The translations under genes and the position numbers were made by a program. The notes beneath the pieces were generated by a model that was not told the origin of the DNA, did not search any database, and saw nothing but the letters and a program-made list of their open reading frames with translations. Shown here piece after piece: positions 44,044 to 63,966 of a DNA stretch of 64,000 bases. Position 1 is the stretch's first letter, and each line of letters starts with the position of its first letter. Source of the DNA: Bacteroides sp. AN502(2024) (lineage in GTDB: Bacteria > Bacteroidota > Bacteroidia > Bacteroidales > Bacteroidaceae); assembly GCF_041227145.1 (NCBI RefSeq), contig NZ_JBGFSP010000004.1, positions 343,929-407,928 on the forward strand, read 5' to 3'.

Positions 44044-44721
44044 TTAATAGCGCCTTAACACCACTTGAAACGCCTCTGCATAACGGCATCCCCACTGACT
44101 GCCCCGCATTGCAGCCAAACCTGAAATATATTCATTGCTGCGGGGATGAGGATATGGACGCATTACGCCACGGTACATAGCCAATGCCCTGCATTTGGCA
44201 TCCACGCCTTCCTTGCCCACCTCAACATAACAGTTAGGACGGAACAAATTCATGGCGTCATTGATTGCCCATTCACTGCATGAAGGAACTTCCATATACC
44301 AGAACTCCTTCACAGGCTTCACACTTGGCTGGCGCTGGAACAAGCGAATTGCCTCCTGACAGGCCATTGATGTCTGAAGATGGTCGTTATTTGTATCTGC
44401 AGGATGATGAGTGATAATAATATCAGGCTCACTTTCTCTTATGGCACTTTCTATGAACTGCACCAGTTTCAGGTGAGGTACTGTGTTCATCTCGATATTC
44501 GGGAATGTCGCCTCATACTTTTTCTTCACACCAAGGAAAGAAACGGCAGTATCCGTATCACCCTCCAATTCCTCATCAGAAGGACGGAATGCACGAGCTT
44601 TGGCCTCCGTACACATGATTGCCACATCAACCTCATCACCTTCATGTGTCCATTTCCACATAGATGCACCTGCTCCGAGGACTTCATCATCGGGATGTGC
44701 TACTACTAATAAGTATTTCAT
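44044..44721 (-). CDS. PIG-L family deacetylase
   Basis: A 225-residue zinc-dependent N-deacetylase of the PIG-L/LmbE family. AHPDDEVLG (residues 8-16) and THHPADTNNDHLQ (about 107-119) carry the metal ligands. It would remove an acetyl group from a GlcNAc-like sugar during capsule assembly. A broken, clearly related copy lies 3 kb away at 47551-47918. It follows the epimerase gene with a 122-nt gap holding a small hairpin (44759-44783). Confidence 0.9.
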   Translation of the reverse strand: MKYLLVVAHPDDEVLGAGASMWKWTHEGDEVDVAIMCTEAKARAFRPSDEELEGDTDTAVSFLGVKKKYEATFPNIEMNTVPHLKLVQFIESAIRESEPDIIITHHPADTNNDHLQTSMACQEAIRLFQRQPSVKPVKEFWYMEVPSCSEWAINDAMNLFRPNCYVEVGKEGVDAKCRALAMYRGVMRPYPHPRSNEYISGLAAMRGSQWGCRYAEAFQVVLRRY

Positions 44722-47517: not shown

Positions 47518-47550
47518 ATAACGGATCTTAATAATCTATAACTTATTATA

Positions 47551-47918
47551 CTACTCAATGTCCTTCTCCAGTATCATCAATGCGTTATTGGTATCGGCAG
47601 GATGATGTGTAATCATTACGTCCGGCTCACTGTCTTTTATTGTAGATTCTATAAATTGCACAAGTTTAAAAGATGTGGAACCGTATTCATTTCGATATTA
47701 GGGAATGTCGCCTCATATTTTCTGCTGACACCAAGAAACTTTGAAGAAGCATTTAAATCCTCATCAAGCTCAATATCTTCAGGACGAAAAGCGCGAGCTT
47801 TCGCTTCGGTACACATTATGGCAACATCAACGGTTTCTCTTGAATGCGTCCATTTATATATCGAAGCATCTGCTCCGAGAACTTCATCATCAGGATGCGC
47901 CACTACTAAAAATTTCAT
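47551..47918 (-). pseudogene. broken duplicate of the PIG-L deacetylase
   Basis: The first 80 residues (KFLVVAHPDDEVLGADASIY, then KATFPNIEM-like sequence) closely follow the intact copy at 44044-44721. At VPHL a 2-nt insertion (CATCTTTTAAA) shifts the frame and gives a stop. The shifted frame continues FKLVQFIESTIKDSEPDVMI and THHPADTNN, then ends ALMILEKDIE, so the last 110 residues are missing. It has the metal motifs but cannot make the full enzyme. Confidence 0.85.
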
Positions 47919-47954
47919 TATGTTAGCTTAATAACGTTGTGAAATAGTTGTTAT

Positions 47955-49307
47955 TTAATCATCTACAACTACTTTCCCACTGTTTTTATCTATTGTTAAT
48001 TTAGAGTAATTCGTCCAATCAAGATAATCCCATTTATCAATCTTGCCGGTTTCTTTATTCGGAATTGTCTGTGGACGTCCATAATTATAGGACATCATTG
48101 TCATTTTATCTTTGTCGGTATATGCAATCTCGAATTCCGCATCATATCCAGGTAATGCCGGACACCCTCCCATGAACATTCTCAACATTAGCATTTTTGC
48201 GAACGACTCTTCTGTTTGATAAGGCATTTCACCATTCTCTTTATCAATAATTTTTCGCACAACTAATTTGTCTGTGAATTCTTGTTTCGACTTCTCAATA
48301 AAAGTTTTGCGTAGCGAATAAATATCACTGTCGGTGAGAGTCCATGGTAGAATATTGTCAGTGAAATGGTATTCCAACTCGTTTAGACGTTTTTGACAAA
48401 AATGAGATGACTTTCTTTTGCCGTAACATTCAATACTATACCGCTTGGCTGCAAGTCTCAAAGCTGAGATAGAATAAGTTTTTGAATTTCGTAATAGGTC
48501 AACCTTTTTAGAAAATTCGTCTTCAAAGAATAGGGGACGATTATCTGTAAACCAATTGAATATATATTCTGAATCCTGTTTGGTAAATGAGAAAGAATAG
48601 ATTGTTGTTTTGAAAGATTGATCCTTTTGCATTTTGATTGAGAATCCTTTCTGCTCGCCAGGGCGTTTAAAAGGTTGTAATCCTATCGGTTTGACACGAT
48701 GAGTCAAACTTAAATCCGGAATATTTAATTCTGCAGCAAAAGGATATGAGTAAATATAGGCAATGTATTCTTGCTCTTCCGTTTTAGGGTGATAGTTGTG
48801 TCCATCGAAATCGCACATCGCAAAAAACATGGCAACATCCAAATCTGTTGTAAGGTCCAATATTTCGGTATCAATCAGATAATGTTGAGCTAACCCAAGA
48901 TAATCGACTTCGATATTGTGAAGATTAAAAAATTCTACGGCTGGATATTGGGAGATCAACAACTCAAACTCCACAAGTTTTAACCGTTCAAGGAATATTT
49001 CGTCTTGGGTCTTGTCACCACGATATAATGTTGGGTAGCATTGCGGATAAAACTTACGTTGACCACGAAAAAGAAAAACGTAATCCATAGCTACAGGCCA
49101 GAGACTGAATTTGCCATAATTATTCAGTATCACTTCAAATTTTCCAGGTGTGAGAAGAAATTTGGAATCGTTCCTTTCCCATTCCAGCAATCTTGACAAC
49201 TGATATTCAAATATAGCATTTTTCAAAATTCCGGGATTTGGAAAATGCTGCTCTGGTGGCATAAAATCCCAAGGTGTCAATGGTAAGTCCATTAATTGAT
49301 TATCCAT
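47955..49307 (-). CDS. FRG domain protein
   Basis: A 450-residue cytosolic protein. The FRG domain shows VFLFRGQRKFYPQCYPTLYR (about 77-96) and HYLIDTEILDLTTDLDVAMF (about 139-158), the Phe-Arg-Gly motif and the second conserved block. The rest is not recognised. FRG proteins occur in varied contexts, including toxin- and defence-like loci, and have no established activity. It overlaps the SDR gene by 1 nt, so it is translated with the capsule operon, which is odd for this family. Confidence 0.75.
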   Translation of the reverse strand: MDNQLMDLPLTPWDFMPPEQHFPNPGILKNAIFEYQLSRLLEWERNDSKFLLTPGKFEVILNNYGKFSLWPVAMDYVFLFRGQRKFYPQCYPTLYRGDKTQDEIFLERLKLVEFELLISQYPAVEFFNLHNIEVDYLGLAQHYLIDTEILDLTTDLDVAMFFAMCDFDGHNYHPKTEEQEYIAYIYSYPFAAELNIPDLSLTHRVKPIGLQPFKRPGEQKGFSIKMQKDQSFKTTIYSFSFTKQDSEYIFNWFTDNRPLFFEDEFSKKVDLLRNSKTYSISALRLAAKRYSIECYGKRKSSHFCQKRLNELEYHFTDNILPWTLTDSDIYSLRKTFIEKSKQEFTDKLVVRKIIDKENGEMPYQTEESFAKMLMLRMFMGGCPALPGYDAEFEIAYTDKDKMTMMSYNYGRPQTIPNKETGKIDKWDYLDWTNYSKLTIDKNSGKVVVDD

Positions 49308-50002
49308 TATTTAAAAGAATATCCTCCGTTGATTTCAATCAAACTGCCATTTACGAATGAATTGTCAATGCAGAAACGATATGCATCAACAATCTCGTCC
49401 ACTGATGCAAATCTGTGGATAGCGGTTTTTCGATATATGTTCTGCTTAATTTCTTCCGGCTTTTGTTTCTGCCATGGAGTTTCCACAAATCCTGGAACTA
49501 TAACATTGACGGTTGTTCCTGTACCTTCAAACTCTTTCACAAGATTTTTTGCAAGTGCATGTATAGCTGCTTTGGTGACACCATAAGCAAGAACCGTGGC
49601 ATGAGGCATAAGTCCCATTAGTGATCCTGTGAATAGGATTCTACTTCTATTCGGAATTATAGGAAAAAATTCGCGAACCATGATGTAGTGGGAGTTAACA
49701 GCGACTTCCATCATTTTATCCCAGTCATCATCGCGTGTTTCTGTAAAACTTTTGCGTATTGTTATACCGGCATTGCACACCAAACAGTCACAATGACACG
49801 TTCTTGATTTTACATAGTTTATGAATCGATATACTTCTTCGCGTGAAGTGTGGTCAGTTTCTATAGCTTCAAAGTTCTGCAAGTCTTCATTTTGGCAAAC
49901 TCCGACATAAGTGGCAAATACGTGATAACCTTTGCCAATAAGCATTTTTGCAACACCAAGGCCGATACCTGATGTGCCGCCTGTTACAACAGCGTATTTC
50001 AT
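49307..50002 (-). CDS. SDR family oxidoreductase
   Basis: A 231-residue classical short-chain dehydrogenase. TGGTSGIGLGV is the NAD(P) motif, NAGITIRKS the NNAG-type motif, ILFTGSLMGLMPH has the catalytic Ser and YGVTKAAIHA the YxxxK. It overlaps the cytidylyltransferase/oxidoreductase fusion by 4 nt. That pairing suggests it makes or reduces the polyol-phosphate or keto precursor activated by the fusion protein. Confidence 0.88.
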   Translation of the reverse strand: MKYAVVTGGTSGIGLGVAKMLIGKGYHVFATYVGVCQNEDLQNFEAIETDHTSREEVYRFINYVKSRTCHCDCLVCNAGITIRKSFTETRDDDWDKMMEVAVNSHYIMVREFFPIIPNRSRILFTGSLMGLMPHATVLAYGVTKAAIHALAKNLVKEFEGTGTTVNVIVPGFVETPWQKQKPEEIKQNIYRKTAIHRFASVDEIVDAYRFCIDNSFVNGSLIEINGGYSFK

Positions 50003-51348
50003 AATTCCATAAAGTTTTTACGTTCGGTAAATCTTCTCATTACGTCTGCCATGGCAATTGATTCCCTGCGTCTCAGACGAGTTGTTGAAAAGCGCTTATT
50101 GAGTATGCAAGATATAAATTCCTGTATCTCATATCTCAATCCTGCACCATCCCACTGATAGAAAAACTTTTTATTTCTGTTTTGGTCCTCGTAACGTAGT
50201 TCAAAATAATCAGTTTTCCACCATGGCGCAGGCACATAGGCATATCCCTTAGTGCCGGATATAACAAGATTGCCTTCCGTTTTTACGCCCAAGCCGACCT
50301 TGAATGAACATACGGCATGAGAATAGCGGAATACTCCCTTTGTGTACATATCCACACCGTCTTTCATACGTGAGTAGATGTTCAGATTTTTAAAGTCAGT
50401 ACCTAAAAGTTTGAATATAGGCAACAATGGATAGCTACCAAGCTCATACATAGAGCCTCCGGCCTGAGCCGGGTCAAACTCTCTTAGGGTCATGTCGTCA
50501 TCCCACAATTTTGACAACGATGCTTCAACATCCACCACATCACCGATAACGCCACTCTTAATCATTACCATAAGATGATTGAAAGCTGGACAGTGGGCGG
50601 TCTTATTTGCCTCCATAAGAATCAGACCTTTGGACTCAGACAATGAAAACAATTCCTTTGCCTCACTCTCTTTAAGCACCATCGGTGTTTCACAAAGCAC
50701 ATGTTTTCCGCGTTCTAAGGATTCCTTAATGAGCGAATAGTGCGAAAGGTGTGGTGTCGCGATGTAGACTGCATCAACAGAGCTGTATAATTCATCTAAA
50801 CTTTGACTGAAGAAAGGCATATTGTGCCGAACCGAAAATTCTGCATTTCGTTTTATATCTGTATCGTATGCGGTGCGAATTACAATGCCATTTACAACAG
50901 ATGCTTCATAGGGGAAGCGATTGGCAACACGTCCACAACCTATTATCCCGACATTTACATCTATGGTTGACTTTGCACGAAGCTGCGTCGAACTTATCCC
51001 TTGCGTTCGTGGTAAGTAAACTACTTTGCAATACTCATTGAGGTAGTCAAACTTACCTTCCCAGTCGCTACCGATAGCAAATATATCGACATTATACCTT
51101 TGTATATCATCGATTTTTTGCCCGATGTAATCTTCTATAATTACCGCATCAGCATAACCTGTAGCTTTAACAGCCTCAACTCTTTCGAGAACATTGTTTC
51201 GAACATTTAGCTTGCCTCTAGCACGGTCATAACTATCGCTCGTCACGCCGACAATAAGATAGTCACCCAATTCCTTAGCTCGTCGCAAAAGATTGAGATG
51301 TCCTTGATGAAGTAAATCGTATGTACCGTATGTAATAACTTTTTTCAT
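49999..51348 (-). CDS. TagD-type cytidylyltransferase fused to Gfo/Idh oxidoreductase
   Basis: A 449-residue two-domain protein. Residues 1-128 are a glycerol-3-phosphate cytidylyltransferase-like nucleotidyltransferase with HQGH (14-17), an RYNVDIFAIGSDWEGKFD segment and ISSTQLR (118-124). Residues 131-449 are a Gfo/Idh/MocA oxidoreductase with NVGIIGCGRVAN (132-143) and GGSMYELGSYPLL. The usual EKP motif reads ETP (Thr221), so the catalytic Lys is replaced. I infer that it makes a CDP-activated polyol for the adjacent CDP-glycerol-type transferase. The two-in-one layout echoes Bcs1/TarIJ but with different folds. Confidence 0.88.
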   Translation of the reverse strand: MKKVITYGTYDLLHQGHLNLLRRAKELGDYLIVGVTSDSYDRARGKLNVRNNVLERVEAVKATGYADAVIIEDYIGQKIDDIQRYNVDIFAIGSDWEGKFDYLNEYCKVVYLPRTQGISSTQLRAKSTIDVNVGIIGCGRVANRFPYEASVVNGIVIRTAYDTDIKRNAEFSVRHNMPFFSQSLDELYSSVDAVYIATPHLSHYSLIKESLERGKHVLCETPMVLKESEAKELFSLSESKGLILMEANKTAHCPAFNHLMVMIKSGVIGDVVDVEASLSKLWDDDMTLREFDPAQAGGSMYELGSYPLLPIFKLLGTDFKNLNIYSRMKDGVDMYTKGVFRYSHAVCSFKVGLGVKTEGNLVISGTKGYAYVPAPWWKTDYFELRYEDQNRNKKFFYQWDGAGLRYEIQEFISCILNKRFSTTRLRRRESIAMADVMRRFTERKNFMEL

Positions 51349-52529
51349 TATACTTCTTTCCCAAATAGTTTTTCAATACATATATTAGTGGCATTACCAC
51401 CAATCCCGGTATATTTCATTTTGAACTTTCTACTATTTAAGGATTCTTTAGAATAATCCATATTCAGTAGATGATTTATCACCTGGTCTTCAGACCTCAT
51501 TACCCCTGAGGGCATCTCTTTCTCAAAATCTAAATTAACACCTCTAGTATTGCAATAGTGTTCATAATCATATGCAAAGCATATGATAGGCCGTTCAAGT
51601 ATTGAATAATCTGCGATACAAGCAGAATAATCAGAAATTAATATATCACTAATCTTGAACAATTTATTTATAGATGGATATTCTGAAACATCACGAACAA
51701 AATCATTAAACTGTATGCCTAACAATCTATTTGTGTAAGCATGTATCCTAATAAGTAGGATATATCTGTCACTTAGAGTGTTCTCCCACTTCTTAATATC
51801 GATAGGAGGTGCAATGGCATAAGAATTACCTCCATCGTCACTGTCACGCCACGTTGGAGCGTATAGAATGATTTGTTTATCATTTGTTACACCAAGTTCT
51901 TTTTTGATGTCATCTACTTCATCAGCCGAAATATTGTACAATTCATCGTTACGTGGTAAACCAGATGGAACTAAATGATTTTCACGTACATTGAATGAGT
52001 TCATTAAAACGTTCTTTTGGTAGTCACTTTCATAACACATGAAATCAACATGACTAAAATCATCATTTCCACGAGCATCAACCGTATCAATACTTTTCAA
52101 TGCCACCCCATGCCAAGTATTAAGATAAGTACATTCTTTCTTTTTGTACTTCAGACCTCTTTCGATATTTACACAAGTTATCCAATATCGAGCTTTAAGA
52201 GTATATTTAAAGTAGCTTAGAGTATCAGTTTTTATAACCTTAGCCGACCCTGGGATGATAGTGTTAATCGGGTCATCAACAGCCCATACAAATGTATAAT
52301 CTTTGAATCTGTCTTGCTGAATCAATTTCTCATATATAGCTCTCGGACTATCGTTATATCTTCTTGAGTGTCCCGAAAATACAATTAACATAGGATTTAT
52401 AGGAATGAATACCCCCCATATTTTAAACACATTGCTCATAACAACCTTATAGCATTGATAAGCAATTTTATTATGCTTGAGAATATAATCAATTCTCGCA
52501 CGTATTCCACTTATTTTTTTCTCTGCCAT
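51348..52529 (-). CDS. CDP-glycerol glycerophosphotransferase family protein
   Basis: A 393-residue TagB/TagF-type polyol-phosphate transferase. NTWHGV (137-142), YAPTWRD (223-229) and SDYSACIADY (299-308) are the family's conserved blocks; the His of the first and the last motif bind substrate and CDP. It would move a polyol phosphate from a CDP donor onto a capsule sugar. Start and stop overlap neighbours by one base or less, so it is translationally coupled with the fusion gene. Confidence 0.9.
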   Translation of the reverse strand: MAEKKISGIRARIDYILKHNKIAYQCYKVVMSNVFKIWGVFIPINPMLIVFSGHSRRYNDSPRAIYEKLIQQDRFKDYTFVWAVDDPINTIIPGSAKVIKTDTLSYFKYTLKARYWITCVNIERGLKYKKKECTYLNTWHGVALKSIDTVDARGNDDFSHVDFMCYESDYQKNVLMNSFNVRENHLVPSGLPRNDELYNISADEVDDIKKELGVTNDKQIILYAPTWRDSDDGGNSYAIAPPIDIKKWENTLSDRYILLIRIHAYTNRLLGIQFNDFVRDVSEYPSINKLFKISDILISDYSACIADYSILERPIICFAYDYEHYCNTRGVNLDFEKEMPSGVMRSEDQVINHLLNMDYSKESLNSRKFKMKYTGIGGNATNICIEKLFGKEV

Positions 52530-59641: not shown

Positions 59642-60383
59642 TTATACAGCCATTGACATAGGAACGAGATCTTCATAATTCTCGTTTCCGTCCATCAGCG
59701 GCCTAATTGTAGTTGCAATATAGTCACGGACATTGAGACCCATTTTACTGTGACGGTTATTAAGATCACGTAAATCAGTGATCAGAGTCTGATACTTCCG
59801 TGCCTTGAAAGGCATTCTTTTCAATGTTTCCATGTTCTTCAATACATAAATCCAACGTTCAAAATCCGTATCACATTCCGACTCCTCCTTGTTGAAAGAC
59901 GGGAGTTCGATAAAGATAAAGCGCAACTTGTCTGAGAATGTCTCATGCGTGTCCCGGTCGGCCAATACCACATCCGTACGCAGTTTGTGGGAACCGTTGG
60001 GCAGACTGAAGTTCAAGAAAAACACGCCGTACACCGCTTTCAAGTCAAACTTCCAGAAAATACCCCGCTCTCCCTGACGGGCAATGGTATGGGACAGGTA
60101 AAAAAGGGCACGCTCCTTGAAGTTCGTCTGCTGCTTGTTCTGCATCTCGACAACCAGTTGTTCACCGTTTTCCGTCGTACAATAAATGTCATAGATAACC
60201 CCTCTGTCTCCCATGTATTCCGGAAGCAATTCCTTGTCCAGAAAGGTTATGTCGGTGATACACTTCTCGTTCACAAGCAATCCGTTTAAGAAATCGATCA
60301 ACAAGTCTTTCGTTATCTCCTGCCCGAATATCTTTTTATATGTTCATCCGCAATATTTCAAATAAGTCATATATTGCACTCAT
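59642..60383 (-). pseudogene. Rpn-family PD-(D/E)xK nuclease/transposase, disrupted start
   Basis: The 220-residue intact frame (from 60304) matches the Rpn (recombination-promoting nuclease) family: ITFLDKELLPEYMGDRGVIY then DIYCTTENGEQLVVEMQNKQ, which has the D...ExQ active-site block, and KAVYGVFFLNFSLPNGSHKL. The missing N-terminus lies upstream in another frame: KKIFGQEITKDLL reads into the frame but is cut off by a TGA before it, and no good start remains. Family length is about 300. I call it a pseudogene; a shortened protein is possible. Confidence 0.7.
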
Positions 60384-60421: not shown

Positions 60422-60509
60422 GTTCTACAACTGTTGACTTTCAGTTCCACAGTTGTTTCCCTTTAGTTCCACATCTGTTATTGTTTCGTTCCACATATGT
60501 GGAACGTAC
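60422..60509 (-). repeat. four 22-bp tandem repeats at the 3' end of capG
   Basis: GTTCCACA (first copy GTTCTACA) recurs exactly every 22 nt at 60422, 60444, 60466 and 60488, with a partly conserved remainder (TG at +10 and T-rich after). The last unit includes a 20-bp perfect palindrome CGTTCCACATATGTGGAACG (60487-60506). Three units lie in the capG coding end, where 22 nt shifts the codon phase each time. The capG stop falls in the first unit. Confidence 0.9.
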
Positions 60510-61699
60510 CGGCCTTCCTTACGCCACACCATCTTATTAACGACTCCCACGTAACTCTGAATAATCTTCACGACCTTATTCGATACATCATCAGTATAGT
60601 CCGGAACAGGGATGCCATGATTGCCATCCTTTGTCATCTGAACGGCAAGGTCTACGGATTGCAGAAGCCCCTTGGTATCGATGCCGCTCAGAATAAAGCA
60701 AGCTTTGTCGAGAGCCTCCGGACGCTCTGTCGATGTACGGATACAGACAGCAGGGATCGGTTTGCCGATAGATGCATAGAAACTCGATTCCTCCGGAAGC
60801 GTGCCACTGTCGCTGACGACACAGAAGGCATTCATCTGGAGACAGTTGTAGTCATGGAAGCCGAGGGGCTGCTGAACCTTTACCCGAGGATCGAGTTGGA
60901 AGCCCGATGCGGCAAGACGGTTACGTGAGCGTGGGTGACAGCTATAGAGAACCGGCATATCATACTTCTCTGCCATTTTGTTGATGGCGGTGAAAAGGGA
61001 CAGGAAGTTCTTTTCCGTATCGATGTTCTCTTCGCGATGGGCTGAGAGAAGAATATATTTTCCTTTTTCCAGCCCCAGACGCCGGTGGACATCACTTGCC
61101 TCGATCGCTGCGAGGTTGTTGTGAAGGACTTCTGCCATGGGGGAGCCGGTGACATAAGTCCGTTCTTTGGGCAGACCGCAATCGGCAAGGTATCTTCTGG
61201 CATGTTCCGAGTATGCCATGTTTACATCACTGATGATATCTACAATACGGCGGTTGGTTTCTTCCGGAAGACACTCATCCTTGCAGCGGTTGCCTGCCTC
61301 CATGTGGAAGATAGGAATGTGTAAACGCTTGGCACCGATAACACTCAGACATGAGTTGGTATCACCTAAGACTAATACTCCGTCCGGCTTGGTTTGATTG
61401 AACAGTTTGTAACTGCAATTGATGATGTTACCGCAGGTGGCACCAAGGTCATCCCCCACGGCATCCATATAGACCTCCGGTTCCGCCAGTTTCAAGTCCT
61501 TGAAGAAAATGCCGTTAAGGTTATAATCGTAATTCTGACCGGTATGGGCAAGAATCACATCGAAATACTTGCGACACTTGTCGATGACCGTCGACAAACG
61601 GATAATCTCGGGACGGGTACCGACAACGATAATGAGTTTCAACTTGCCATTATCCTTGAATTTGATACCTGAATAATCGAATCTGGGTTGCTTTTCCAT
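60425..61699 (-). CDS. capG: UDP-N-acetylglucosamine 2-epimerase-type enzyme (CapG/FnlC)
   Basis: A 424-residue non-hydrolysing 2-epimerase. VVGTRPEIIRLSTVID, AHTGQNYDYNLNGIFFKDL, HMEAGNRC and ILLSAHREENID are the family motifs. Next to CapE and CapF it is the third enzyme of UDP-N-acetyl-L-fucosamine synthesis, epimerising UDP-L-PneNAc. The C-terminus (MWNETITDVELKGNNCGTES) is unusual because it is encoded by the 22-bp repeats. It starts 1 nt from the capF stop. Confidence 0.9.
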   Translation of the reverse strand: MEKQPRFDYSGIKFKDNGKLKLIIVVGTRPEIIRLSTVIDKCRKYFDVILAHTGQNYDYNLNGIFFKDLKLAEPEVYMDAVGDDLGATCGNIINCSYKLFNQTKPDGVLVLGDTNSCLSVIGAKRLHIPIFHMEAGNRCKDECLPEETNRRIVDIISDVNMAYSEHARRYLADCGLPKERTYVTGSPMAEVLHNNLAAIEASDVHRRLGLEKGKYILLSAHREENIDTEKNFLSLFTAINKMAEKYDMPVLYSCHPRSRNRLAASGFQLDPRVKVQQPLGFHDYNCLQMNAFCVVSDSGTLPEESSFYASIGKPIPAVCIRTSTERPEALDKACFILSGIDTKGLLQSVDLAVQMTKDGNHGIPVPDYTDDVSNKVVKIIQSYVGVVNKMVWRKEGRYVPHMWNETITDVELKGNNCGTESQQL

Positions 61700-61700
61700 A

Positions 61701-62906
61701 TTATTTCTCTACCTTATCAAAGTATGTATCCGGTTTATCCGGGTCAAATATCTCGTTGCAGTACATCACCGTTATCAGGTCTTCCGTATCGGAGAGGTTG
61801 ATGAGGTTGTGCGTATAGCCGGGAAGCATGATGACGGATTGGATTCTGTCACCGCTCACCTCGTAGTTAAGCACTTCATCTGTCCCTTCCTTGCGGAGTT
61901 GGATAAGGCCGTGCCCGCTGACGACAATGAACTGTTCCCACTTGGTGTTGTGCCAGTGTTCGCCTTTGGTTATGCCCGGTTTGGAGATATTCACACTTAC
62001 CTGTCCGCAGTTCAATGTGTGCAGGAGTTCTGTGAAACTGCCACGCCGGTCTACATTCATCCTCAAATCGAAGATGGCTTTGTCTTGGGGCAGGTAACTC
62101 AGGAATGTACTGTACAGACGTTTGGCAAACGAATCTGCCGGGATTTCGGGAATCATCAGCGTCTTTGGCATTTCTGCGAATCGATGCAACCGATCGACGA
62201 TCTCACCAAGTGTCACCTTATGGGTGACCGGACAATAGCAATATCTGCCGTCACTCTTCGGATATACATCAAGACCCTCGAACTCACAACGATGCTCCTC
62301 TCCCTGCAGGGCATGAATCATCTCGTCCACAAGGTCATCGATATAGAGCAGCTCAAGCTCTACACCCGGATCGTTGACCTGTATGGGCAGATCATTAGCT
62401 ATGTTGTTGCAGAATGTGGCTACCGCACTGTTATAATTGGGACGACACCACTTACCGTAAAGGTTCGGGAAACGGTAGACCAAAACCCTGGAGCCGGTTT
62501 CTCTGCCGTATTGTAGAAAAAGGTCCTCACCCGCCTTTTTGCTACGGCCGTATTCGCTGTTGCCGAAACGACCGGTCAGTGAGGCTTGCGCACTGGAGGA
62601 AAGCATGACGGGACAAGTGTTATGGTGCTTTCTCAAGGTATCAAGCAATGTACTTGCAAAACCGAAGTTGCCTTCCATGAACTCGTCATTGTCTTTGGGA
62701 CGGTTCACCCCGGCAAGGTTGAATACGAAATCGGCTTTCTGACACCAGACATCCAATTGTTCGGAAGTGGAATCGATATCGTATTCAAATACTTCATCGA
62801 TCTTCAGATCGCCATAACAAAGAGCCTTACCGTCTTTTATGTTGTTAAGTTGGGCGCAAAGATTCTTACCGACAAAACCCTTGGCTCCGGTAACCAGTAT
62901 TTTCAT
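61701..62906 (-). CDS. capF: UDP-2-acetamido-2,6-dideoxy-hexulose reductase (CapF/FnlB)
   Basis: A 401-residue bifunctional protein. An SDR domain (MKILVTGAKGFVGKNLCAQL, ending YGRSKKAGED with YxxxK) is joined to a C-terminal cupin (about 290-400) with KGEHWHNTKWEQFIVVSGHG. CapF epimerises and reduces the CapE product in UDP-L-FucNAc synthesis. Start at 62906 is chosen over an earlier Met at 62939 that would overlap capE; it leaves a 10-nt gap. Confidence 0.92.
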   Translation of the reverse strand: MKILVTGAKGFVGKNLCAQLNNIKDGKALCYGDLKIDEVFEYDIDSTSEQLDVWCQKADFVFNLAGVNRPKDNDEFMEGNFGFASTLLDTLRKHHNTCPVMLSSSAQASLTGRFGNSEYGRSKKAGEDLFLQYGRETGSRVLVYRFPNLYGKWCRPNYNSAVATFCNNIANDLPIQVNDPGVELELLYIDDLVDEMIHALQGEEHRCEFEGLDVYPKSDGRYCYCPVTHKVTLGEIVDRLHRFAEMPKTLMIPEIPADSFAKRLYSTFLSYLPQDKAIFDLRMNVDRRGSFTELLHTLNCGQVSVNISKPGITKGEHWHNTKWEQFIVVSGHGLIQLRKEGTDEVLNYEVSGDRIQSVIMLPGYTHNLINLSDTEDLITVMYCNEIFDPDKPDTYFDKVEK

Positions 62907-62916
62907 CTTTCCGTTA

Positions 62917-63966
62917 TTACTGCACAAAGTTGCCCTCACCGCTCAATTCTTTCTTTATATAGTCCAAAGCTGCAATCTTGGCTTTGGTTTCCTCCACAGT
63001 AAGGATCCGCGTATTGTTTGAATTGAACTCCGTGAGCGTGTTACGTTCAGTCTCTCCCTCTTTGAAATATTTGTCGTAGTTCAAACCCCGGTTATCTGCC
63101 GGTACGCGATAGAAGTTGCCCATATCCTCAGCCTTGGCACATTCCTCATTGGTGAGCAATGTCTCATACATCTTCTCACCGTGACGGATACCGATCACTT
63201 TAATGTCTTCCTTCTTGCCGCCGAAGAGTTCGCAGACAGCCTCTGCCTGAGTACGGATGGTACAGGCAGGAGCTTTCTGAACAAGGATGTCACCGTTACG
63301 ACCGTGTTCGAAAGCAAAGAGGACGAGATCCACCGCCTCTTCCAACGACATGATGAACCGGGTCATCTTAGGCTCTGTCAATGTAATAGGATTACCATTA
63401 CGTATCTGCTCTATCCAGAGAGGAATCACCGAACCACGGGAACACATCACGTTGCCATAACGTGTGCAGCAAATCTTTGTCTTGCCGGAGTAGCGGCTCT
63501 TTGCCACCGCTATCTTCTCCTCAATGGCCTTGGTGATACCCATCGCATTGATTGGATAGGCTGCCTTGTCCGTTGAAAGACATATCACAGCGTCCACCCC
63601 GACTTCGATTGCGGCAGTCAGTACATTGTCCGTACCGATCACATTCGTCTTTACAGCTTCCATCGGAAAGAACTCGCAACTCGGTACCTGTTTCAATGCT
63701 GCTGCATGGAAAATATAATCAACTCCGAGCATTGCGTTCCTGCAAGACTGGAGATTACGCACATCGCCAATGAAGAACTTGATCTTGTGAGCCACATCAG
63801 GATATTTTGACTGATACTCGTGACGCATATCGTCCTGCTTCTTCTCGTCGCGGGAGAATATACGGATCTCACCGATATCGGCACGGAGAAAACGGTTTAA
63901 CACTGCATTACCGAAGGAGCCTGTCCCACCGGTAATCATTAGAGTTTTGCCTGCAAAAATGCTCAT
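62917..63966 (-). CDS. capE: UDP-GlcNAc 4,6-dehydratase/5-epimerase (CapE/FnlA)
   Basis: A 349-residue SDR that converts UDP-GlcNAc to the 2,6-dideoxy-L-arabino-hexulose, the first step to UDP-L-FucNAc. TGGTGSFGNAVLNRFL is the NAD motif. STDKAAYPINAMGITKA is the active-site block with Met in place of the SDR Tyr, as in CapE. RYGNVMCSRGSVIPLW and a GEKMYETLLTNEE region follow. It is the first capsule gene in the window; anything before it lies beyond 64000. Confidence 0.94.
   Translation of the reverse strand: MSIFAGKTLMITGGTGSFGNAVLNRFLRADIGEIRIFSRDEKKQDDMRHEYQSKYPDVAHKIKFFIGDVRNLQSCRNAMLGVDYIFHAAALKQVPSCEFFPMEAVKTNVIGTDNVLTAAIEVGVDAVICLSTDKAAYPINAMGITKAIEEKIAVAKSRYSGKTKICCTRYGNVMCSRGSVIPLWIEQIRNGNPITLTEPKMTRFIMSLEEAVDLVLFAFEHGRNGDILVQKAPACTIRTQAEAVCELFGGKKEDIKVIGIRHGEKMYETLLTNEECAKAEDMGNFYRVPADNRGLNYDKYFKEGETERNTLTEFNSNNTRILTVEETKAKIAALDYIKKELSGEGNFVQ

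Follow-up and report, generated by a model that had tools for sequence, protein, structure and literature searches.

TarI and Bcs1 are cytidylyltransferases of the IspD type (PF01128) which, in TarI-TarJ and Bcs1/Acs1, are paired with or joined to an oxidoreductase in the synthesis of CDP-ribitol. PMC10918830 mentions the CDP-ribitol route and establishes that a ketose can be cytidylylated first and reduced afterwards, CDP-6-fructose being converted to CDP-glucitol. Here we describe a three-gene capsule module from Bacteroides sp. AN502(2024), located in a stretch of 64,000 nucleotides (contig NZ_JBGFSP010000004.1, positions 343,929 to 407,928), hereafter the window. Its central gene encodes a fusion of a TagD-like cytidylyltransferase with a Gfo/Idh/MocA oxidoreductase devoid of the catalytic lysine of its family, and is flanked by genes for a polyol-phosphate transferase and a short-chain dehydrogenase/reductase (SDR). 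Most of its relatives are accompanied by an SDR or by an aminotransferase, and one residue of the Gfo/Idh half follows this choice. We propose, from comparison of sequences, that the fusion may catalyse the first step of a CDP-polyol pathway, making a CDP-linked carbonyl that would in the window be reduced in trans by the SDR. We regard this reading as plausible, while stopping just short of calling it probable.

The preliminary description of this DNA had reported three overlapping genes for an SDR, a TagD-type/Gfo-Idh fusion and a CDP-glycerol-type phosphotransferase; coordinates, overlaps and Pfam matches all agree with it. The genes lie on the reverse strand. The first (51348..52529) encodes a Glyphos_transf (PF04464) protein of 393 residues (Pfam 2e-80), whose closest solved structure by sequence is TagF (3l7i, E 3.8e-47) and which scores below the NCBIfam equivalog cut-offs for TarF (191 against 550), TarL (108.6 against 1000) and TarB (65.7 against 500); it is predicted to use a CDP donor. 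It overlaps by 1 nt the gene of the fusion (49999..51348; 449 residues), in which the cytidylyltransferase takes up residues 1-125 and the oxidoreductase residues 130-449. The fusion gene in turn overlaps by 4 nt the gene of a classical SDR of type A (49307..50002; 231 residues; adh_short 1e-38; N77, S127 and Y140xxxK144), the predicted finishing reductase.

The fusion was compared with its relatives in two sets, 135 rows in all. Set 1 comprises 82 rows, namely 80 genome loci (the best 80 of 583 confirmed relatives), locus L007 and the window. Set 2 comprises 53 held-out loci less than 97% identical to set 1, taken from 56 of the 66 places in a draw of genomes of the family besides the window's own, together with G777; the remaining nine, two of which are partial, were omitted, and 9 of the 62 loci fetched were dropped as at least 97% identical. 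One pair above 97% identity (L137 and L138) remains inside the 135 rows. Partners were sought within 2.5 kb by tblastn (E 1e-6) with set-1 representatives, a search that would miss unrelated finishing enzymes; SDR matches below 40% identity were dropped and no identity limit was set for aminotransferases.

This search placed an SDR beside 75 rows, an aminotransferase beside 50, neither beside 10 and both beside none. Set 1 accounts for 47 SDRs (of three types), 28 aminotransferases (class V or class I/II) and 7 rows with neither, set 2 for 28, 22 and 3, respectively, and the two partners never occur together in either set. In 26 of the 135 rows the nearest partner is, as in the window, an SDR of type A. 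Partners are mostly tightly packed against the fusion: the SDR match starts at most 10 nt downstream in 56 of 74 SDR-type loci, and the aminotransferase lies at most 65 nt away in 44 of 50. Only three changes between SDR and aminotransferase are counted on the tree. The class V aminotransferases are relatives of PhnW/BhcA and those of class I/II of HisC; among solved structures, 3f0h, deposited as 'Aminotransferase', comes closest to the class V partner (E 2e-148). Xylanibacter muris (L028) offers an example of the aminotransferase type. Four of the ten rows left without a label have a partner further off (L032, L033, L077 and L096; 2.6-4.6 kb), and another, L082, gives a weak SDR match only. 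At L096, an alanine dehydrogenase/PNT-type gene (L096:9051-10010) directly follows the fusion and the aminotransferase is 4.6 kb away; a role of this gene in further amine modification is possible.

When the two partner classes were compared in set 1, positions 280, 303 and 288 stood out, all in the Gfo/Idh half. The overlap between classes fell below 0.5 at none of the 125 cytidylyltransferase positions and at 5 of the 314 positions of the Gfo/Idh half, and the lack of separating positions in the former fits one shared first substrate. Position 280, which was chosen in set 1, is basic there in 47/47 SDR rows and non-basic in 27/28 aminotransferase rows. In set 2 it is basic in 28/28 and non-basic in 22/22, all 50 held-out partnered rows being in agreement, which brings the totals over both sets to 75/75 and 49/50. 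The lone exception, L086, has a 26% aminotransferase match lying 1.9 kb away. Eight loci examined later, all with an adjacent aminotransferase, likewise have a non-basic residue, although L191 and L223 copy set-1 rows, leaving six that are new. At position 303, the set-2 rows of one class share no letter with those of the other (L, M, S and H with an SDR; W, N, Q and E with an aminotransferase), and the class separation at position 288 did not hold in that set. The change at 280 seems to have arisen more than once, since aminotransferase-type fusions inside the SDR clade carry Gln (L086 apart) and deep ones Thr or Ser.

The Gfo/Idh half (49999..50961, reverse strand) carries GCGRVA at residues 137-142, ETP at 220-222, K249, K280 and E302. 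It matches GFO_IDH_MocA (1.7e-19, residues 131-246) and GFO_IDH_MocA_C3 (3.7e-10); with PF01408 and PF22725 above cut-off, a GxGxxA motif and a fold match, both the NAD-binding and the C-terminal domain are present. What it lacks is the catalytic lysine of EKP. The preliminary description had noticed ETP in its place and proposed an alignment of Gfo/Idh active sites, and this alignment bears the observation out. ETP is no chance change: of 201 aligned family members, 179 have Thr at position 221 and a single one has Lys. Across the 135 rows, position 221 is T in 81, I in 30, S in 18, L in 2, K in 2, V in 1 and P in 1; lysine is thus missing in 133 rows and kept in a sister group. K249, by comparison, is present in 131 of the 135 rows and replaced by Arg in the remaining 4. 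Residue 162, compared for a possible preference between NAD and NADP, is D or N in SDR rows and mixed in aminotransferase rows. In 19 distant aminotransferase-type rows, including Ruminococcus albus, the NAD motif has lost its second glycine (mostly GxSxxL) and E302 is missing in 19/19; judging by these rows, the fused half seems able to do without redox activity when a partner is present.

The sister group retains the lysine in most of its members: among the 120 proteins nearest to the Lys-bearing row L097, position 221 is Lys in 108, Asn in 10, Ser in 1 and Ile in 1. One natural Lys-bearing homologue is the Butyricimonas protein P0288. Its 12 rows in our tree (11 with Lys, P0279 with Asn) form a single clade with full SH-aLRT support, and support for the Lys-bearing clade is 82/89 on the Gfo/Idh half alone with viral rows included. 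This Gfo/Idh tree is unrooted, the branch to the genome-paralogue outgroup being far too long, and gives no order for lysine loss and partner gain. A search for further Lys-bearing loci in genomes recovered only the genome of L097, as the other matches that were read lack Lys. An SDR or aminotransferase partner is missing from all five Lys-bearing loci with a neighbourhood (L084, L097, L192, L193 and L194; L084 is truncated), whereas 125 of the 133 Lys-less rows have one within 2.5 kb (Fisher 3.3e-6, or 3.5e-5 without L084, values that are no true probabilities as the rows are related and the Lys-bearing ones form one group). LicD is encoded upstream of the fusion at L097 and downstream at L192 and L193. 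L192, L193 and L194 are IMG/VR contigs classed as viral, and L193 has a second TagD-like ORF immediately upstream.

The TagD-like half (residues 1-125; 50974..51348, reverse strand) matches CTP_transf_like at residues 5-125 (2.1e-19), and PF01467 is the only cytidylyltransferase family matched in the window's fusion, IspD-type PF01128 giving no match. Its motifs are HQGH (14-17), R44-G45-K46, Y74, S94 and RTQGISST (114-121), and H14, G16, H17, R44, G45, K46, S94, R114, T115, G117, S119 and S120 are invariant in the 135 rows. Both CTP-binding motifs, HxGH and one resembling RTxGISTT, are therefore present as H14-x-G-H17 and R114-T-x-G-I/V-S-S, the first of the two Thr being Ser (S120). The TagD pocket differs at its substrate end, with Tyr replacing TagD Trp74, which we take to be the counterpart of W692 in PfCCT, and Arg replacing TagD Lys44, and the motif RYVDEVI has given way to TGYADAVI in the window (G64 in 133/135 rows). 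In the described enzymes, RYVDEVI is the dimer-interface motif of the TagD type, Lys44 of TagD binds phosphate (PMC8262930) and W692 of PfCCT contacts choline (PMC6060094). The fusion reaches 123.1 bits against the NCBIfam model of glycerol-3-phosphate cytidylyltransferase, whose cut-off is 165.4. This sub-cut-off score, the Tyr at position 74 and the lost RYVDEV motif together weaken a plain TagD/CDP-glycerol assignment. Stand-alone relatives of this half are short proteins, many of them from short contigs. The same genome holds a second pair (L002; G000:C3, about 2273731), made of a Glyphos_transf-like ORF, to which the window's phosphotransferase gives a match, and a stand-alone cytidylyltransferase that retains RYVDEVV.

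HisC- and PhnW-type enzymes use carbonyls neighbouring a phosphate- or phosphonate-bearing carbon, which is one reason for taking dihydroxyacetone phosphate (DHAP) as our best guess for the small keto-phosphate to which the TagD-like half would couple CTP. Another is that Cj1437 of Campylobacter jejuni transaminates DHAP (PMC12096443). Reduction of the resulting CDP-bound carbonyl would fall to the SDR, encoded by a gene of its own, probably because the fused Gfo/Idh half is without the EKP lysine present in the sister group; the polyol phosphate would next be transferred by the phosphotransferase to the repeat of the capsule. Where relatives have an aminotransferase, of either class, in the position of the SDR, a CDP-amino-polyol would result, while in the Lys-bearing group the built-in oxidoreductase would reduce the CDP-carbonyl in cis. 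As SDR and aminotransferase never occur together, the choice between them would likely decide between a polyol and an amino-polyol capsule. The simplest account has a single substrate and a single first step, followed by one of three finishing reactions. It builds on the gene order, the domains, the exclusivity of partners within 2.5 kb, the link at residue 280 and the missing lysine, and from these we infer the substrate, the redox direction, the product and the remaining role of the Lys-less half, which might be substrate holding or residual redox activity. The CDP-polyol pathway of the preliminary description is supported in outline, with a small polyol-like unit activated as a CDP donor and passed on to a transferase (96 of 134 relatives have a LicD or Glyphos_transf match within 6 kb), whereas a plain version with a glycerol or ribitol teichoic polymer finds no such support. 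That description contained neither the aminotransferase branch, with a putative amino-polyol in many relatives, nor the Lys-bearing sister group.

Several observations weigh against this account. The NAD motif (GxG), K249, a basic residue at 280 and E302 are kept in 75/75 SDR-type rows, so that the Gfo/Idh half of these fusions is under constraint, probably retains some function and may still be catalytic. Eight Lys-less rows have no partner by our search, and neither LicD nor Glyphos_transf was found within 6 kb in 38 of the 134 relatives. SDR types A, B and C swap often on the tree, type A with 13 changes being as scattered as shuffled labels (mean 13.1), and so they may not all perform the same step. 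The Lys-bearing rows are one group, in which the absence of a partner may be a single event, and the link between lysine and partner rests on few loci, three of the five being viral contigs and L084 truncated. Finally, at L194 a downstream glycerophosphodiesterase gene overlaps the Lys-bearing fusion by 4 nt, which points to glycerol-3-phosphate.

Gfo/Idh dehydrogenases act ahead of an aminotransferase in aminoglycoside pathways, and the fold matches of the fusion (in a search that barely covered residues 1-127) include GenD2 and KanD2. Together with the retained residues of SDR-type rows and the glycerophosphodiesterase at L194, this favours an order of events opposite to ours: the TagD-like half would make CDP-glycerol or another CDP-polyol, the Lys-less half would oxidize it with NAD+ to a ketone, and the SDR would re-reduce this to the other stereoisomer or the aminotransferase would aminate it. 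Yet the 19 distant rows without the NAD motif and E302 still keep an aminotransferase that would need the ketone, and the Lys-bearing fusions, by sequence the best dehydrogenases, have no finishing partner; we consider this order rather doubtful, though still a serious contender. The preliminary description had instead seen in the Gfo/Idh half the TarJ-like reductase of the module, in which case the product would be CDP-glycerol or CDP-ribitol and the SDR would serve another capsule step. Lys-less Gfo/Idh enzymes may indeed be active, as the K102A and K102E mutants of KijD10 were crystallized with ligands (according to the titles of the structure entries) and reportedly keep activity, and in our rows K249 is never other than Lys or Arg. 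Nevertheless, with the lysine gone, an SDR or aminotransferase accompanies 125 of the 135 fusions, all 125 among the 133 Lys-less rows, and residue 280 tracks it, which would be unexpected for a bystander. We find a TarJ-like role unlikely.

The class V partner is similar to 2-aminoethylphosphonate transaminase (TIGR03301; 154 bits, below the cut-off of 360.8), and fusions of PF01467 cytidylyltransferases to PEP mutase are known (PMC6697681). Both would suit a phosphonate unit, with phosphonoacetaldehyde being cytidylylated and subsequently converted to CMP-aminoethylphosphonate by amination or to CMP-hydroxyethylphosphonate by reduction. We rejected this pathway as very improbable: no PEP mutase match was found in the window's 98%-complete genome (6 of 14 control genomes gave a match, none passing the cut-off), and the EDKx5NS motif is missing from 137 fusion loci.

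A more ambitious form of our proposal is a modular route to CDP-linked three-carbon units. The fusion would make CDP-dihydroxyacetone, and its own reductase half, an SDR or an aminotransferase would finish it to CDP-glycerol of chosen stereochemistry or to CDP-serinol, the Gfo/Idh half of partnered fusions becoming a docking platform tuned at residue 280. As a whole we deem it somewhat unlikely. If it holds, amino-polyol decorations of many gut-bacterial capsules could become readable from sequence. Should our main proposal be right, the neighbouring gene, or a single residue, would tell a polyol phosphate capsule from an amino-polyol phosphate one, and a widespread route to capsules would begin with a large family of proteins now named 'Gfo/Idh/MocA family oxidoreductase' or 'glycerol-3-phosphate cytidylyltransferase'. 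There would also be a graded natural series in which an oxidoreductase domain beside a partner enzyme is without its lysine, then changed at residue 280, then without its NAD motif.

GNAT acetyltransferase genes near some aminotransferase loci would fit a free amine: five members of one neighbour cluster, of which one was tested with Pfam, all lie at such loci, and the R. albus locus has another GNAT. As a mark of aminotransferase loci they are only suggestive, a GNAT-like match lying 5.7 kb from the SDR-type fusion at L029.

The fusion is widespread but patchy. The preliminary description had proposed a search for the same two-domain architecture in other genomes; the architecture proved not to be rare, both domains being present in all of the best 120 homologues listed (the window's own included). 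At least 8000 candidates pass E 1e-3 (8000/8000 scored), with both domains read among the best 120. Among genomes besides the window's own, the fusion was found at E 1e-60 in 6 of 392 from the order and in 63 of 398 from the family. A random draw from the phylum gave 1 of 395 genomes, the window's own. In the family draw the window's genus has one other carrier (G1104, 51% identity) and at least 20 genomes without the fusion. In R. albus it lies on a mobilizable plasmid. Capsule loci move between strains, and the patchy spread fits such movement. No description of the fusion or of its aminotransferase branch was found in titles and abstract beginnings of the open-licence literature, which is no proof of absence elsewhere.

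The surroundings of the module look, from their gene content, like a full capsule locus, with a flippase, a polymerase-like protein (Wzy_C below cut-off), three glycosyltransferases, a hexapeptide acyltransferase-type protein, a bacterial sugar transferase and nucleotide-sugar genes. The overlapping run ends with a gene for a 450-residue FRG-domain protein (47955..49307, reverse strand; Pfam FRG 2.5e-12) that overlaps the SDR gene by 1 nt and weakly matches the PADLOC candidate defence family PDC-S15 (1.1e-11). It is possibly a defence or stress gene translationally coupled to the capsule genes, and we do not regard it as part of the CDP pathway. A decayed, frame-broken deacetylase remnant (about 47520-47930, reverse strand) adjoins the sugar transferase, and an intact similar gene lies 3 kb further on (44044-44721, reverse strand); both are presumably of the PIG-L type, and the deacetylase-type genes have weak BshB1/MshB matches in NCBIfam. 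Three genes at 60425-63966 (reverse strand) resemble the UDP-L-FucNAc pathway, with a UDP-GlcNAc 2-epimerase-like protein and a WbcJ-like reductase, each below its curated NCBIfam cut-off, and a putative third member. Between the flippase and epimerase genes lies a 220-residue ORF (59642-60304, reverse strand), which we take to resemble an Rpn/PD-(D/E)XK-type nuclease-transposase.

The capsule module of the window is real and conserved; it belongs to the known CDP-polyol kind, with an aminotransferase branch among its relatives and a partner-coupled residue in addition. Dimeric dihydrodiol dehydrogenase and KijD10, of the same Gfo/Idh/MocA family, carry the family signature EKP, whereas the fusion has ETP and a cytidylyltransferase fused to it. 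With TagD/TarD the fusion shares HxGH, RTxGIS, Lys46 and a whole-domain match to 2b7l and 1coz, and it differs from them in Trp74 to Tyr, Lys44 to Arg, RYVDEV to TGYADAV, the sub-cut-off NCBIfam score and the fused oxidoreductase. Like Bcs1/Acs1 and TarI-TarJ, it joins a cytidylyltransferase to an oxidoreductase; here, however, both halves have other folds, the finishing enzyme is exchangeable and there is an aminotransferase branch. The cytidylylate-then-reduce logic proposed for this capsule is that of HS5.18/HS5.17 in C. jejuni and Mnp1/Mnp2 in Streptococcus pneumoniae, which proceed through CDP-6-fructose to CDP-glucitol or CDP-mannitol (PMC10918830). Those systems combine a PF01128 cytidylyltransferase with a PF01370 reductase, whereas the module described here combines PF01467, fused to Gfo/Idh, with a classical SDR.

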